From contig NZ_PDKF01000005.1 in NCBI RefSeq assembly GCF_004118855.1, forward strand, positions 62,001-126,000: a DNA stretch of 64,000 nucleotides. Direction: 5' to 3'. The position numbers were made by a program, and so were the translations under genes. A model generated the notes under the pieces. It made no database searches and had not been told where the DNA came from. It saw only the letters and a program-made list of their open reading frames with translations. Source of the DNA: Arcobacter sp. CECT 8983. Its GTDB lineage: Bacteria > Campylobacterota > Campylobacteria > Campylobacterales > Arcobacteraceae. Positions 1,748 through 7,632 of the stretch are shown here, one piece after another. Position 1 is the stretch's first letter. The number at the start of each line of letters is the position of its first letter.

Positions 1748-3280
1748 TTAGTGTAAGAAGTGTCTAACACCTGTAAAGTATAAAGCCATTCCGTGCTCAT
1801 TTGCAGCTTCAATAACTTCATCATCTCTAACTGAACCACCTGGCTCAATCACACATTTAACACCAGCTTCAGCAGCTGCGTCAATTGAGTCTCTAAATGG
1901 GAAGAATGCTTCAGAAGCAAGAACTGAACCACTAACATCAATTCCCATGTCTTCTGCTTTTCTAAGTGCTGCTTTAGCTGCATCAACTCTTGAAGTCATA
2001 CCCATACCAATTGCAACTACTGCAGAATCTTTTACATAAACAACACAGTTAGATTTAGTTCCTGCTGCTACTTTAACAGCAATTTCCATATCTTTTTTCT
2101 CTTGTTCTGTTGCAGTTCTTTCAGTTTTTAACTCAGCATTTTTAACTTCATCAACACCTACTACATCAGAGTCTTGGTAAACAAATCCACCATCAACAAT
2201 TTTGAAGTTGAAATCATCATTTGCAAGGTCTAATTTTTGTGTACCTTGTTTGAATAGTTTAAGTCTTTTCTTCTTGTTAAACTCTTCAATTGCTTCATCA
2301 GTAAAATCTGCTGCAAATACAACTTCTAAGAAGATTTCGTTCATTTTAGCTGCTAGTTCACCATCAACTACACCGTTAACTGCTACAACTCCACCAAATG
2401 CAGACACAGGGTCACATTTAAGTGCTTCTGTATAAGACTCTAATAATGTGTCTTTAATAGCAAAACCACAAGGGTTACCATGTTTTACGATACATACAGC
2501 ATTATCATCACCAAAATTAGCAGCAATCTTTGCAGCTCCACTAATATCACCCATGTTATTGAAAGATGCTTCACCTTTTACTGGAATGAATTTTTCAGAT
2601 AAGTGTTTATCAAACTCATATAATGCACCTTTTTGGTGTGGATTTTCTCCATATCTTGTATCAAATACTTTCTCACCAACGATGAATTGTTTCTCACCCA
2701 TTCCACCATTGAATCTTTTGTTCATATAATTTGCAATCATTGAGTCATATGCAGCTGTGTGCTCATATGCTTTAATCATCATATCTCTTCTAAACTCTAC
2801 CGTATTTGTATCGTTTTTAAGATTATTTAATACAGTATCATAATCAGCAACATTAGTTACAATAATTACTGAATCAAAGTTCTTAGCAGCAGATCTAACC
2901 ATCGCAGGTCCACCAATATCAATATTTTCAATGATTTCTTCAAAGTCATCAGTTTTTTCAATAGTAGCTTTAAAAGGATATAGGTTTACACATACTAAAT
3001 CGATACCTTCTACACCTAATTCTTTTGCTTGATCAAGGTGAGATTGCTTATCACGTCTATGTAAAATACCACCATGAATATATGGGTTTAAAGTTTTTAC
3101 TCTTCCTTCAAAGCACTCAGGAAATTTTGTAACTTCATTTGCTTCAATTACTGCAATTCCTGCTTCTTGAAGTTTTTTATATGTACCACCAGTTGAGATG
3201 ATTTCATAACCTAATTCTACAAGCTCTTTTGCAAAATTTTCAACACCACTCTTATCACTTACACTAATTAATGCTCTCAA
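1748..3280 (-). CDS. purH: bifunctional AICAR transformylase / IMP cyclohydrolase
   Basis: PurH carries out the last two steps of de novo IMP synthesis: formylation of AICAR with 10-formyl-THF, then ring closure. The 510-residue length is normal for the family. The N-terminal MGS-like cyclohydrolase domain (about 1-130) begins [16 protein letters not shown]. The AICARFT domain (about 195-510) carries KHGNPCGFA and the KSNCVVY segment. Translation starts at TTG, preceded by GAGG eight bases upstream. A TATAAT -10 box lies about 30 bases upstream on the same strand. The gene appears monocistronic. Confidence 0.97.
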
Positions 3281-3423: not shown

Positions 3424-5238
3424 ATGAGTAGTTTAGATTTATTGTGGATATTATTAAGTGCTTTTTTAGTTTTTTTAATGCAATTTGGTTTTTCTTTAAT
3501 TGAAACAGGAACAGTTAGAACAAAAAACACTATAAATGTAGCAATGAAAAACCTAATAGATACAGTCTTCGGGATTATGTTCTTTTGGCTATTAGGTTTT
3601 GGATTTATGTTTGGAAGCAGCTCTTTTGGCTTATTTGGAACTTCAAGTTTTTTAATAGATGGAACAAACTTAGAACAAAATGCAATTTTCTTTTTTCAAT
3701 CAATGTTTGCAGCAACGGCAATTACTATAGTTTCAGGTGCAGTTGCAGAAAGAATAAAATTCAATGCCTACATTATAGTTGCAATTTTTGTTGCAGCTTT
3801 TATTTATCCAATATTTGGACATTGGGCTTGGAATGAAAATGGTTGGTTAGCTAAATTAGGTTTCGTAGATTTTGCAGGCTCAACAGTAGTACACTCAGTT
3901 GGAGCTTGGATAGGTTTAGCTGGAACTTTAGTATTAGGACCAAGACTTGGAAAATTTAGAAAAGGGAAAATTAAATATTTTGCTCCATCAAATCACAACT
4001 TTATTGTATTTGGTGTTTTTATACTTTTTCTTGCATGGTTTGGTTTTAATGCAGGAAGTCTTTTAAAGTTTGATTTAAAGATTACATTAATACTTCTAAA
4101 TACTCTTATTTCTGCCATATTTGGTGGCTTTGCAGCTTGGCTTTTAACCTTTGTAAATAAAGAAAAAACCAAAGTAGAAATGTTTAGTTTTGGTATTATT
4201 GCAGGACTGGTAGGAATTACTGCTGGATGTCATTTATTTACTATTTATGAAGCAGCTGTTGTGGGATTTATTTCAACTTTAATTATGCATGTATCTAATG
4301 ATTTTATAACAAAAAAACTAAAAATAGATGATCCTTTAAGTGTCATTGGTATTCATGGTTTTGCTGGCGCTTGGGGAACTATAGCACTTGCTTTATTTAC
4401 TGCTTCACCAAAAGGTTTATCTTTTGTAGAGTTTTTTATAGTTCAATCTTTAGGTGTGATTGTTGCTTTTATTTTTTCATTTACCCTAGGTATTATTTTA
4501 TTTTTAATTCTTTATAAATACAAATTTTTAAGAGTTAAAAAAAGAAATGAAGTTATTGGTTTAAATACTAGTGAACATAATGCAAAGCTTCCTTGGGTAG
4601 AAACTATTGAAAGTATTGTTAGTATTATGAAAACAGGGAATCTTAACAAAAAAATATATGAAGAAAGAGATACAGAAGTAGGAATTGTTGCAAAATTTTT
4701 TAATTATCTTTTAAATATGTTAAAAGAAAGAAATGAAAACTTAAAAAAATCAAATCGCTCACTTCATAAAAAAGCTTATTTTGATTCTTTAACAAAGGTT
4801 CTAAACCGTAGAGGTTTTTTAGAAAAGATGAAACGCAAACCTTATGGAGATAATTACTCTGTTATTATTGCTGATATAGATAAGTTTAAAACAATAAATG
4901 ACACCTATGGGCATGATATTGGAGATATTATTTTAAGTGAATTTGCAGAAGTAATTGGTAATAAAATTAGACTTGATGATATCTTTGCAAGATGGGGTGG
5001 AGAAGAGTTTATATTAATTATAAATACATCAAGTTTAAATGCAGTACAAAATATTGCGGAAAAAATAAGACTTGACATTGAAAAAACAAAATTTACTAAA
5101 GTAGGAAAAGTTACAGCTTCATTTGGAGTGAGTAGCTTTAAAGCTTCAAATAACTCTTTTGATGATGTATTTAAAAATGCAGATGATGCACTATATCAAG
5201 CTAAAAAATTAGGGAGAAATAGGGTTTATTGCTATTAA
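3424..5238 (+). CDS. ammonium transporter (Amt) fused to a GGDEF diguanylate cyclase
   Basis: Residues 1-370 form an Amt/MEP/Rh ammonium transporter fold with about eleven membrane helices. The channel residues match AmtB: the DFAGSTVVH segment gives Asp149 and His157, and the second pore histidine is His311 in IGIHGFAGAWG. A linker of about 70 residues with a HAMP-like or coiled segment leads to a GGDEF domain (about 450-604). This has an intact GGEEF active site (525-529) and an inhibitory RLDD I-site (516-519) at the canonical five-residue spacing. The protein probably senses or moves ammonium and couples this to c-di-GMP synthesis. Amt fused to signalling domains is a known architecture; signalling by this protein is inferred. 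No GlnK gene is adjacent. Confidence 0.93.
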   Translation: MSSLDLLWILLSAFLVFLMQFGFSLIETGTVRTKNTINVAMKNLIDTVFGIMFFWLLGFGFMFGSSSFGLFGTSSFLIDGTNLEQNAIFFFQSMFAATAITIVSGAVAERIKFNAYIIVAIFVAAFIYPIFGHWAWNENGWLAKLGFVDFAGSTVVHSVGAWIGLAGTLVLGPRLGKFRKGKIKYFAPSNHNFIVFGVFILFLAWFGFNAGSLLKFDLKITLILLNTLISAIFGGFAAWLLTFVNKEKTKVEMFSFGIIAGLVGITAGCHLFTIYEAAVVGFISTLIMHVSNDFITKKLKIDDPLSVIGIHGFAGAWGTIALALFTASPKGLSFVEFFIVQSLGVIVAFIFSFTLGIILFLILYKYKFLRVKKRNEVIGLNTSEHNAKLPWVETIESIVSIMKTGNLNKKIYEERDTEVGIVAKFFNYLLNMLKERNENLKKSNRSLHKKAYFDSLTKVLNRRGFLEKMKRKPYGDNYSVIIADIDKFKTINDTYGHDIGDIILSEFAEVIGNKIRLDDIFARWGGEEFILIINTSSLNAVQNIAEKIRLDIEKTKFTKVGKVTASFGVSSFKASNNSFDDVFKNADDALYQAKKLGRNRVYCY

Positions 5239-5262: not shown

Positions 5263-5276
5263 TTGATTGGCATCAA
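5263..5276 (+). promoter_or_regulatory. FNR/Crp-family operator upstream of the DUF2249 operon
   Basis: TTGATTGGCATCAA is a perfect match to the FNR-type dyad TTGAT-N4-ATCAA. It ends 50 bases before the start of the DUF2249 gene. The position suits activation by an FNR/DNR-type regulator that responds to oxygen limitation or nitric oxide. The regulator itself is not in the window. Confidence 0.65.
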
Positions 5277-5326
5277 TAAATCAAATCCTTAAAGAGGTTA
5301 AACTTCAAAAAACAAAAGGATGAAAA

Positions 5327-5665
5327 ATGGAAAAAATAGAAGTAATAGGAGCTAGTGTAGATTTTTTTAAATCTATTGAAAATGGATTAACAACTTATCA
5401 CTTTGATACAAGTAAATGTGCCCCTCCAGAGCCTATGGTAAATGCAATGGCAGGATTACAATTACTAGATGAAAATAGTCAATTAGTTATGATAAACCAC
5501 AAATCTCCTGCAGGACTTTTCCCAAGAATTGAACAAGATTTCACTTTTGATGTTGAAGAATTAGACAATGGTTTTGCAAAAGTTGTTTTTAGAAAAAAAA
5601 TAGATTCTAAGAATACAACTAATTTTACTCAAAATAGTTGTAGTGGTTCAGGGTGTAATCACTAA
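5327..5665 (+). CDS. DUF2249 domain protein
   Basis: The 112-residue soluble protein carries the DUF2249 signature: an acidic strand followed by CAPPEPMVNAM, then LVMINHKSPAGLFPRIEQ. It ends in an unusual Cys/His tail (CSGSGCNH) that could bind metal. DUF2249 proteins are often encoded with denitrification or nitric-oxide-response genes, which fits the FNR-type box upstream. It is the first of four genes joined by overlapping stop and start codons (TAATG at its 3' end). Its biochemical activity is unknown. Confidence 0.8.
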   Translation: MEKIEVIGASVDFFKSIENGLTTYHFDTSKCAPPEPMVNAMAGLQLLDENSQLVMINHKSPAGLFPRIEQDFTFDVEELDNGFAKVVFRKKIDSKNTTNFTQNSCSGSGCNH

Positions 5666-6915
5666 TGAATATCTCAACTGCTTTTGCTCCACCTTTTAAA
5701 CTTGTAGCACCTTTTTTTATCTTAGGTGTAATAACTTTTGCAATAAGTATTTTACTTATGTTTGGGTTTGAACTTGAAAATTTACACTACTTAAATAGCA
5801 GTACTTTAGCTTGGGTTCATATCTTTTTACTTTCATTTGTAATGCTTATTATTTTAGGAGCAATGGCTCAACTTGTTCCTGTGGTTTTAGAAGTTGGTCA
5901 TTGTGCAGTTGATTTGTATTATGCAATTTATCCTCTAATTATAGTAGGTACTATTTTAATGGCTTTTGGCTTTTATACTCTTCCTATTTTACTTCCCTTT
6001 GGAGGAACAGCTATTTTTATAGCAATGGCAATATTCTTACTTGAAACATTTTTAACAATCTTAAAAGTTAAGAAGATAAACTTTATTATAAGTACAATTA
6101 TCATCTCAAATATATTTTTACTATTTGGATTAATACTTGGAATTGCATTAGCCCTTAACCACTCTGGTATTGTATCTATTGATTCTTTTAAACTTTTAAA
6201 ATCACATATTTTCTTAGTCTTCTTTGGATATGTAGGAACTACTATTATGAGTATGAGTTTAATACTACTTCCAATGTTTTGGTTAAGTCATAGTTTTTCT
6301 TGGATTTACGTAAAAAGTGCTTTTTATATTTTATGTTCAAGTATTATTTCAATGCTAATTTTTAGTTTTTTAGATATTAATATTTTTGAAACTATAGCTT
6401 ATACATTTTGTATAATCTCACTACTTTTATATTTTGTTCAGATATTTGTAATCTATAAAAAAAGAGTAAGAGTTGAAGTTGATATCTATTTTAAAAGTAT
6501 GATTTTTTCATATCTTAGTTTACTTGTATCATTTATACTTTTTATTGCATACTTTTTTTATGGAAATGACAATCTATTAATTTCAGCCTCATGGCTTATT
6601 TTTATTGGTTTTATTGGCTTTTTAATTGCAGGACATCTGTATAAAATTGTTCCTTTTTTAGTTTGGTATGAAAGATTTTCAATATTTGTAGGAAAAAAGC
6701 AAGTACCTATGTTAACTGATTTAATACCCAAAAAAAGCTCAAGTTTCCAATTTATCTTATCTTCTTTTGGAACTATTATTGTAACCATAGGTTTAGTGAT
6801 GAATATAGATGAAATATATAAAAGTGGTTTGTGTTTTTTAACTATTGGTGTTATCTTTTTATTAAAAGATATCTTATATATGGCAACAATAAAGGAGGAA
6901 TCATATGTATTCTAA
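5665..6915 (+). CDS. polytopic membrane protein, heme-copper oxidase subunit I / NnrS-like
   Basis: The 416-residue protein has about twelve hydrophobic helices. Intramembrane histidines lie in patterns typical of heme-copper oxidase subunit I or NnrS-like proteins: His52 in AWVHIFLLSF, His79 after LVPVVLEVG, the H in KSHIFLVFFGYVG, and AGHLYKIVPFLVWYE near the C-terminus. It starts on the ATG that overlaps the preceding stop codon. Its position between DUF2249 and DUF59 genes under an FNR-type box suggests heme- or NO-related membrane chemistry. This is inferred; it is not a canonical oxidase, and no other oxidase subunit genes are nearby. Confidence 0.6.
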   Translation: MNISTAFAPPFKLVAPFFILGVITFAISILLMFGFELENLHYLNSSTLAWVHIFLLSFVMLIILGAMAQLVPVVLEVGHCAVDLYYAIYPLIIVGTILMAFGFYTLPILLPFGGTAIFIAMAIFLLETFLTILKVKKINFIISTIIISNIFLLFGLILGIALALNHSGIVSIDSFKLLKSHIFLVFFGYVGTTIMSMSLILLPMFWLSHSFSWIYVKSAFYILCSSIISMLIFSFLDINIFETIAYTFCIISLLLYFVQIFVIYKKRVRVEVDIYFKSMIFSYLSLLVSFILFIAYFFYGNDNLLISASWLIFIGFIGFLIAGHLYKIVPFLVWYERFSIFVGKKQVPMLTDLIPKKSSSFQFILSSFGTIIVTIGLVMNIDEIYKSGLCFLTIGVIFLLKDILYMATIKEESYVF

Positions 6916-7210
6916 AGAAGAAATTTTTGAAGCTATTTCAACTGTTATTGACCCTGAAGTTGGATTTAATCTTGTGGAAATGGGACTTATTTATGATGCA
7001 AAATGTAATGAGAAAATGGAAGTTCTTGTAACTATGACACTTAGTACAAAAGCTTGTCCTTTACATCAATTAATTGTTCAATGGGTAGAAGAAGCTGTTT
7101 TAAGAGAACTTCCTAAGGTTGAGCTTGTAAGTGTTGAGCTTGTTTGGGAGCCTGTATGGAACATATCAATGGCACAAGATCATGTAAAACAGAGGTTAGG
7201 TGGTTTCTAA
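6905..7210 (+). CDS. DUF59 / MIP18-family Fe-S cluster assembly factor
   Basis: The 101-residue protein is a single MIP18 (DUF59, PaaD/SufT-like) domain. It shows the IDPEVGFNLVEMGLIYDAK signature and the conserved cysteine in STKACPLHQ. Proteins of this family help mature iron-sulfur proteins. It overlaps the membrane-protein gene by 11 bases and the next gene by one base, so the products are probably made in fixed ratio. The context suggests it serves a metal-dependent partner in this operon (inference). Confidence 0.85.
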   Translation: MYSKEEIFEAISTVIDPEVGFNLVEMGLIYDAKCNEKMEVLVTMTLSTKACPLHQLIVQWVEEAVLRELPKVELVSVELVWEPVWNISMAQDHVKQRLGGF

Positions 7211-7632
7211 TGAGCTTTTTATTTGTAAAACTAATTCATATTTTTTCAGTATTTATCTATGCAGGTTTTTTATTTACAGATAATCTTATTTTAATGAGAA
7301 TGCAAAAAACTCTAAGTGAAGAAAAGTATAAAGAAGTTAGAGGATACTTTGCAAAACTAACACGGGCTATTGTTCCTAAAGCATTAATAGTAGCTGTAAT
7401 ATCAGGAATATATCTATTTTATATTAGCTTTGGAAGTATTCCACAAGATAGTAGTTTTTCAACTTTTCAAATCTTACTTTCTTTAAAAGCTTTTTTAGGA
7501 TTATGGTTAGGATTAAGAGGAGTTTTACAAGTATTTTTTGGTATTCAACCTTTTGTATTTAAAGGTCATAGATTACCATTTATTTTAGTTATTATGATTA
7601 TATTTATATCGCAGATTATGTATAGTGTTTAA
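7210..7632 (+). CDS. CopD-like four-helix membrane protein
   Basis: The chosen ATG at 7210 overlaps the stop of the DUF59 gene (TAATG). A longer in-frame start at 7144 would lie wholly inside that gene and is rejected. The 140-residue product has about four membrane helices and an early His in FVKLIHIFSVFIYAGFL. This resembles CopD-like or cytochrome b561-like small membrane proteins found with copper or heme functions. It closes the four-gene FNR-box operon. No substrate can be assigned. Confidence 0.65.
   Translation: MSFLFVKLIHIFSVFIYAGFLFTDNLILMRMQKTLSEEKYKEVRGYFAKLTRAIVPKALIVAVISGIYLFYISFGSIPQDSSFSTFQILLSLKAFLGLWLGLRGVLQVFFGIQPFVFKGHRLPFILVIMIIFISQIMYSV

Follow-up and report, generated by a model that had tools for sequence, protein, structure and literature searches.

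The 64,000-nucleotide stretch of Arcobacter sp. CECT 8983 considered here (contig NZ_PDKF01000005.1, positions 62,001 to 126,000 of the forward strand; the window in what follows) contains an operon of four overlapping genes, the first three of which encode a DUF2249 protein, a membrane protein with twelve transmembrane (TM) helices and a DUF59 iron-sulphur (Fe-S) factor, and which is preceded by a site of the type bound by CRP/FNR-family regulators. We are very confident that the operon would belong to an Nss/DNR-type regulon, its regulator and signal being predicted from sequence, and consider it highly likely that it is accessory to the respiration of nitrate and nitric oxide (NO); it probably helps the cell to handle NO or to keep iron enzymes working during nitrate respiration. 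The explanation that we favour overall, with a probability of roughly 0.55, is that of an N-oxide regulon operon that serves NO capture and the protection of iron centres.

On its own a single box is weak evidence, close to chance: TTGATTGGCATCAA is the sole exact TTGAT-N4-ATCAA in the window (boxes with at most one mismatch number 14, against 10.3 expected), and the genome as a whole (2.74 Mb) holds 18 exact sites versus 11 in a reversed control. What makes the box more than chance is its conservation in relatives, together with a fixed spacing to the -10 element. The order, represented by 298 genomes, was searched for the membrane protein (E 1e-5 or better), and two sets of loci were compiled, i.e. 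the 30 best (the window itself being L001) and 80 further ones from a scan of named genomes, mostly relatives of Arcobacter, Sulfurimonas, Sulfurovum and Hydrogenimonas. Two of these loci, labelled Helicobacter pylori (L033) and Candidatus Methylomirabilis (L045), encode proteins closest to the Arcobacter/Sulfurimonas type and are probably mislabelled or mixed bins. The exact box was counted in the 101 loci that offered at least 200 bases upstream (9 of the 110 were left out because they had no 12-TM hit or adjacent DUF2249 hit, or fewer than 200 bases) and was found in 57 of them (40/73 and 17/28 in the two sets; shuffle mean 0.1 per set), as compared to 20 of the 717 upstream regions of other open reading frames in the same loci. 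Since these counts take in related species, we also used a non-redundant set of 82 loci, from which near-identical upstream regions were dropped and in which kinship remains; the degenerate form TTGAY-N4-RTCAA precedes the operon in 66 of these (85/101 overall; shuffles mean 0.32, maximum 3).

Relatives carry the box at about -68, and a TATAAT-like hexamer begins 29.5 bp from the box centre in 64 of the 67 boxes of the non-redundant set (13 boxes at the next commonest offset). The same spacing had been seen in 46 of 49 loci in an earlier version of the count, for which 73 box-bearing loci were reduced by similarity, before the recount on the non-redundant set of all loci. This spacing puts the box at about -41.5, which is the position of class II activators. 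Class II sites need no -35 element; a simple promoter and terminator scan of the plus strand gave neither a sigma-70 match where the operon starts nor a terminator behind it. A search of the 250 bases upstream in the 30 best loci gave no consistent site of the TTAAC type (NssR of C. jejuni) or of the CRP type. Among 16 sampled genomes of a more distant group (the 'medium' matches described below), 14 of which have the complete set of three genes, 9 have a class II box ahead of the operon, 2 have a box that lacks the hexamer at this distance and 5 have no box there.

An earlier reading of the DNA from its letters alone (the sequence-only reading) had called the box FNR-type. A genuine CRP/FNR-family site it appears to be, while FNR itself gives way to an Nss/DNR-type protein as the likelier regulator. 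FNR combines an N-terminal cluster of cysteine ligands with an ExxSR recognition helix. Four proteins of the source genome exceed the HTH_Crp_2 cut-off. Two of them, P0001 (encoded divergently from napA) and P0002, carry ETLSR as their recognition helix, which the other two lack; neither P0001 nor P0002 has a cysteine in its N-terminal part, and we rejected their identity as FNR on this ground and because a review reports, in its accessible part, that FNR orthologues are absent from Campylobacterota (PMC6682613). In 23 of 79 loci the flanks encode CRP-family proteins (24 in all, 14 of them directly upstream of the three genes), 23 of which carry the helix P-E-T-[LF]-S-R. Within the source genome most of the 18 exact boxes have no class II geometry, several being intragenic; the geometry does recur before napA (as TTGAC-N4-GTCAA), P0001, nnrS and the genes for an FmdE-like protein, a 113-amino-acid protein, an OB-fold protein and a cytochrome c. 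The accessible part of a study of Nitrosophilus labii gives the Nss consensus as TTGA-N6-TCAA, with its first base 48-49 nt before the transcription start sites of napA, norE and nosB (PMC11539149), and a site of this form at class II spacing is what we find here. The Nss regulon of Wolinella succinogenes and N. labii thus resembles the present case in site type, geometry and nap/nor targets, but that part names no DUF or NnrS target, and the operon as a member is a prediction (PMC11539149).

Three of these other genes deserve mention in their own right. The FmdE-like gene of the source genome (L119:2180-2770), with its own class II box, also has counterparts beside the three genes in L080, L096, L151 and others, and its product may be a further functional partner. 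The 113-amino-acid protein (L124:2000-2338; cupin-like by eye, no Pfam match over cut-off) and the small cytochrome c (L126:1687-1959), both of the source genome and both with an exact box in class II geometry, are likely further members of the regulon.

The genomic context points in the same direction. The membrane protein occurs in 171 of the 298 genomes. Among the 30 best loci DUF2249 accompanies it in 29 and DUF59 in all 30, nearly always in the order DUF2249-membrane protein-DUF59, and in the 80 further loci DUF2249 lies just upstream in 77 and DUF59 just downstream in 73, some of the others being cut by contig ends. Only 2 of the 30 best loci and 2 of the further 80 showed a recognisable fourth gene. 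The coupling of four genes claimed by the sequence-only reading is real as far as the window goes, with overlaps of 1, 11 and 1 base and 50 bases from the box to the first ATG, but the conserved unit is a core of three (the trio), the fourth gene being lineage-specific. A survey of gene neighbourhoods, proposed with that reading, agrees with its suggestion of a link to nitrate and NO: neighbours of the trio in 79 loci include NapA-type proteins (10), siroheme-decarboxylase NirDL-type proteins (11), siroheme synthase N-terminal type proteins (11), FmdE (14) and Rrf2 (6). A sister genome (G225) has, after the four genes of the window, one gene each of the COX3 and COX4_pro families, then an Rrf2 gene and norC-norB together with NorD/NorQ-like genes; we take the COX3-family and COX4_pro-family genes to be NorE-like and NorF-like, respectively, and the NorD/NorQ names are likewise our assignment. 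Beyond the phylum, Ensifer canadensis has a homologous set with norB/norQ/norD on one side and nnrS/nirK on the other, and in Thermus another one closely follows the nar operon and a pair of DUF2249 genes.

The association with NO reductase (NOR) can also be quantified. The cytochrome c-dependent enzyme (cNOR; E <1e-60, excluding 8 qNOR-like matches and one contig-edge fragment in G181) is present in 107/298 genomes, namely in 69 of the 82 genomes with a 'strong' match to the membrane protein (E 1e-80 or better) versus 38 of the 216 others (Fisher 9.5e-27, uncorrected for kinship). Besides the strong group there are 67 'medium' genomes, and 22 of the 171 have weaker matches that fall outside both groups and were left out of the co-occurrence analysis. 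In 32 of the 36 genomes that have both on one contig, the trio and NOR lie at most 50 kb apart (here the G181 fragment was counted), and of the 20 genomes assembled into at most three contigs, 18 have the two within 50 kb.

The membrane protein gave no family match in Pfam or NCBIfam, none in PHROGs and, by sequence or with its profile, none in PDB, and it was the fold comparison alone that showed a relation. Its AlphaFold2 model (24 sequences; predicted local distance difference test score, pLDDT, 88.4; predicted template-modelling score, pTM, 0.87) has 12 TM helices and superimposes on CcoN of the cbb3 oxidase (8smr_E: Z 31.8, root-mean-square deviation (rmsd) 3.5 over 386 aligned residues, 12% identity) and on NOR (4xyd_A: Z 30.7, rmsd 3.6, 374 aligned), with a Foldseek E of 4.9e-6; as modelled, the protein has the fold of subunit I of the haem-copper oxidases (HCO) and NO reductases. 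COX1 was matched weakly in 9 of 24 relatives (best 1.2e-4). Alignment by hhalign to the source genome's NorB and CcoN was not significant (probabilities of 4.2% for A4 and 0.3% for A1), and equivalence to the oxidase histidines is for this reason unsupported by sequence. His52, 79, 181, 209 and 324 are invariant in 24 Campylobacterales sequences; across 7 sequences from three phyla, with Thermus and Ensifer, only His52 (TM2) and His181 (TM6) are, next to the conserved stretches GA-x-x-Q-x-V-P-V and LYKI-x-PF-x-x-W. HCO and NO reductases bind their metals through six histidines, including a pair in TM7 and an HxH in TM10. Here TM7 has no histidine and TM10 a single one without HxH, which makes the active site of an oxidase or NOR unlikely; binding of one haem is plausible on the model, in line with the oxidase-like, haem-binding membrane protein that had been proposed.

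HCO homologues (HCOH) with a link to DUF2249 and N-oxide metabolism have reportedly been described by Pei et al. in 2014, and are said to share with the present protein 12 TM helices, the HCO fold, few conserved histidines and the association with DUF2249 and denitrification. His52 and His181 correspond to the two conserved histidines by which such a homologue is recognised. NnrS is likewise a 12-TM HCO-like protein of an N-oxide regulon, but differs by the absence of a sequence relation. The likeness to NnrS in the sequence-only reading did not hold at the sequence level: the protein has no PF05940 or other Pfam match, NnrS is not listed for the 24 relatives, hhalign gives a probability of 0.4% against the source genome's own NnrS, and that true NnrS (PF05940, 4.5e-35) is encoded separately with its own box. 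According to the accessible part of an earlier study, NnrS genes belong to NO/nitrite-responsive regulons (PMC1274295).

As to the small proteins, DUF2249 membership is borderline by score (E 1.3e-6; 28.6 bits, just under the curated cut-off of 29.5). The best structural matches of its model (pLDDT 85.8) are TsuB (Z 8.3), a SirA-like protein (7.5) and TusA (6.7), values that are modest and just above those of unrelated folds (6.6). TusA sulphur carriers have their active-site cysteine in a CPxP motif; a carrier of this type was rejected, as the catalytic position is occupied by P or H, never C, in 16 DUF2249 sequences. The idea that the Cys/His tail forms a metal site fares poorly, since the Cys pair occurs in 3 of the 16 aligned sequences and residues 105-112 have a pLDDT <50. 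The DUF59 assignment is firm (FeS_assembly_P, PF01883, E 9.6e-15), and Cys51, presumably the reactive cysteine of DUF59/MIP18 factors, is invariant in 16 sequences plus 5 cross-phylum sequences including those of Thermus and Ensifer. For the fourth protein, described earlier as CopD-like, no CopD is among the matches listed; they are weak ones to UPF0093/HemJ-like proteins (3.2e-5) and DUF2269 (4e-4), both below cut-off, and membership of HemJ was rejected (24.7 versus 34.2 bits in Pfam, 12.9 versus 138 in NCBIfam). The features are collected in Table 1.

Table 1. Promoter elements and genes of the operon (positions in the window)
Feature	Position	Strand	Remarks
CRP/FNR-family (Nss/DNR-type) operator TTGATTGGCATCAA	5263..5276	+	From sequence; kept in relatives
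Predicted -10 hexamer TAAACT	5299..5304	+	Starts 29.5 bp from box centre; class II, box at ~-41.5
DUF2249 protein (112 aa) with predicted TusA/SirA-like fold; PPEP in place of the CPEP of TusA; Cys/His tail disordered	5327..5665	+	
12-TM protein of predicted haem-copper-oxidase fold (HCO homologue), 416 aa	5665..6915	+	His52 and His181 invariant across three phyla
Fe-S assembly factor of DUF59/MIP18 type (101 aa)	6905..7210	+	Cys51 invariant
4-TM membrane protein, 140 aa; weakly HemJ/DUF2269-like, lineage-specific	7210..7632	+	

We propose that an Nss/DNR-type activator of the CRP/FNR family with FNR-like DNA specificity would bind the box at about -41.5 and recruit RNA polymerase when nitrate respiration takes place or NO is present. 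The products would then be a DUF2249 protein of TusA-like type, an Fe-S factor of the DUF59 family and a membrane protein of HCO fold without the set of CuB ligands. The membrane protein may hold one haem via His52 and His181 and capture or sense NO at the membrane. The iron centres of nitrate and NO respiration might be rebuilt or protected by DUF59, for which DUF2249 would serve as adaptor. What the settings (nap, nar, nor, nirK, ammonifiers) share is nitrate respiration, in which NO arises as product or by-product. The make-up of the trio, with an HCO-fold protein, a TusA-like protein and an Fe-S factor, fits NO capture and iron-centre protection better than catalysis. The molecular part of this proposal, i.e. 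haem binding, NO as the ligand and Fe-S repair, is tentative. An unlikely, more specific version would make the 12-TM protein a one-haem relative of NO reductase, with the haem held by His52 of TM2 and His181 of TM6 between the first and second four-helix units (in the pseudo-symmetric pore that is empty in oxidases) and with NO or haem iron passed to a DUF2249/DUF59 repair pair, a widespread form of membrane NO-buffering in Campylobacterota, Thermus and rhizobia. If true, this would be a one-haem NO-buffering system distinct from the known NO-detoxifying enzymes.

Several observations weigh against NO capture and iron-centre protection under an N-oxide regulator. The co-occurrence with cNOR is uncorrected for phylogeny, 13 of the 82 strong genomes have no cNOR (several are incomplete assemblies), and trios at 33-37% identity were found in genomes without cNOR. 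The absence of the box where the operon is kept, named in advance as the finding that would speak against the sequence-only reading, is seen in a minority: 15 of the 82 non-redundant loci have neither a degenerate nor a one-mismatch box. Two of the boxless loci (L047, L060) have an Rrf2-family gene directly upstream of the trio, which may be another regulator there. The boxless trios of the medium group (L142-L146) all come from genomes without cNOR; some other cNOR-free genomes of this group do carry a box ahead of the operon. In the source genome norCB lies elsewhere, beside an Rrf2 regulator and without a class II box. Nor is the organism a classical denitrifier, as model searches of its genome gave no NirS or clade II NosZ (NirK and clade I NosZ were not part of the search) and it has NrfA, which is found in only 5 of the 82 strong genomes. 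Lastly, the argument for haem binding consists of the predicted fold and the histidines.

The main rival, which we regard as possible although clearly less probable, is that the module serves to insert or deliver cofactors (Fe-S, haem) in the enzymes of nitrate and NO respiration and has no NO chemistry of its own. DUF59 is a family of Fe-S assembly, the linkage to the NOR region is conserved, and in Thermus thermophilus, where the DUF2249 proteins DrpA and DrpB of the nitrate-respiration island are followed directly downstream by the 12-TM and DUF59 homologues, as here, drpA/drpB mutants contain nitrate reductase protein whose activity is low, according to the accessible part of the report (PMC6282519). 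Maturation would leave the need for an HCO fold unexplained, and the module is not NOR-specific, since the trio exists without cNOR, and cNOR without a strong or medium match to the membrane protein in 13 genomes; moreover, the domain architecture of DrpA and DrpB is not that of the DUF2249 protein here, DrpB consisting of DUF1858 and two DUF2249 domains and DrpA being periplasmic (PMC6282519). The same Thermus proteins inspire a second, rather improbable rival, in which the DUF2249 protein and the HCO-fold protein act as sensors of nitrate or NO, with feedback to the CRP/FNR regulators: DrpA/DrpB have been proposed as nitrate sensors under the control of DnrT (PMC6282519, accessible part), and genes for CRP regulators lie immediately upstream in 14 loci, but a sensor would not be expected to include DUF59, the examined flank holds no regulator in most of the 79 loci, and the homology of DrpA to the DUF2249 protein is weak (22%). 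That these are ordinary genes under an accidental FNR-like site, as the 18 versus 11 exact boxes might suggest, is hardly credible given the conservation and fixed spacing of the box across divergent loci.

Some further observations concern the loci themselves. Upstream, and ending 24 bases before the box, the window encodes an ammonium transporter fused to a GGDEF diguanylate-cyclase domain (3424-5238; Pfam 1.6e-107 and 7.7e-39), possibly an ammonium-sensing enzyme of cyclic diguanylate (c-di-GMP) metabolism; downstream lies a convergent DUF302 gene. A purH-like gene (by eye) adjoins the trio in L142, L143, L145, L146 and L156 and is near it in the window (1748-3280), apparently an old synteny. 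On an 83-kb plasmid of Aliarcobacter butzleri the trio (L136:7844-10540; membrane protein 61% identity) lies beside a Tn3 transposase and a recombinase, a setting from which it may be mobile. The membrane-protein gene of genome G043 is split into two frames (L158:3055-4287), with box and neighbours kept. In distant families a small membrane protein of 147-151 amino acids with an early His is encoded directly upstream of DUF2249 (L150:4403-4858, L151:4060-4509, L157:2284-2727), with a layout like that of the window's fourth gene and no Pfam match for the two tested.

The kind of system is already known, given the HCO homologues linked to DUF2249 and N-oxides that Pei et al. reportedly described. 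For DUF2249, we take COG4309 to be the same family. In 2005 COG4309 was tied to nor as a gene co-transcribed with nor genes in Proteobacteria and possibly relevant to NOR function, the same link as here, and the accessible part of that report mentions no trio with an HCO-fold protein and DUF59 (PMC1274295); a Haloferax DUF2249 protein is likewise induced under denitrification, as far as the accessible part of its report goes (PMC11218638). The literature searched, outside whose scope most subscription journals lie, gave no description of the DUF2249/HCO-fold/DUF59 trio where accessible, and annotated records name its members just hypothetical protein, DUF2249 protein and metal-sulphur cluster factor. 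The trio nevertheless recurs in the nitrate/NO clusters of two other phyla (Thermus, Ensifer), with its membrane protein in more than half of the searched genomes of the order, and its conserved promoter ties it to the N-oxide regulon of a group in which the review cited above, in its accessible part, found no FNR (PMC6682613).

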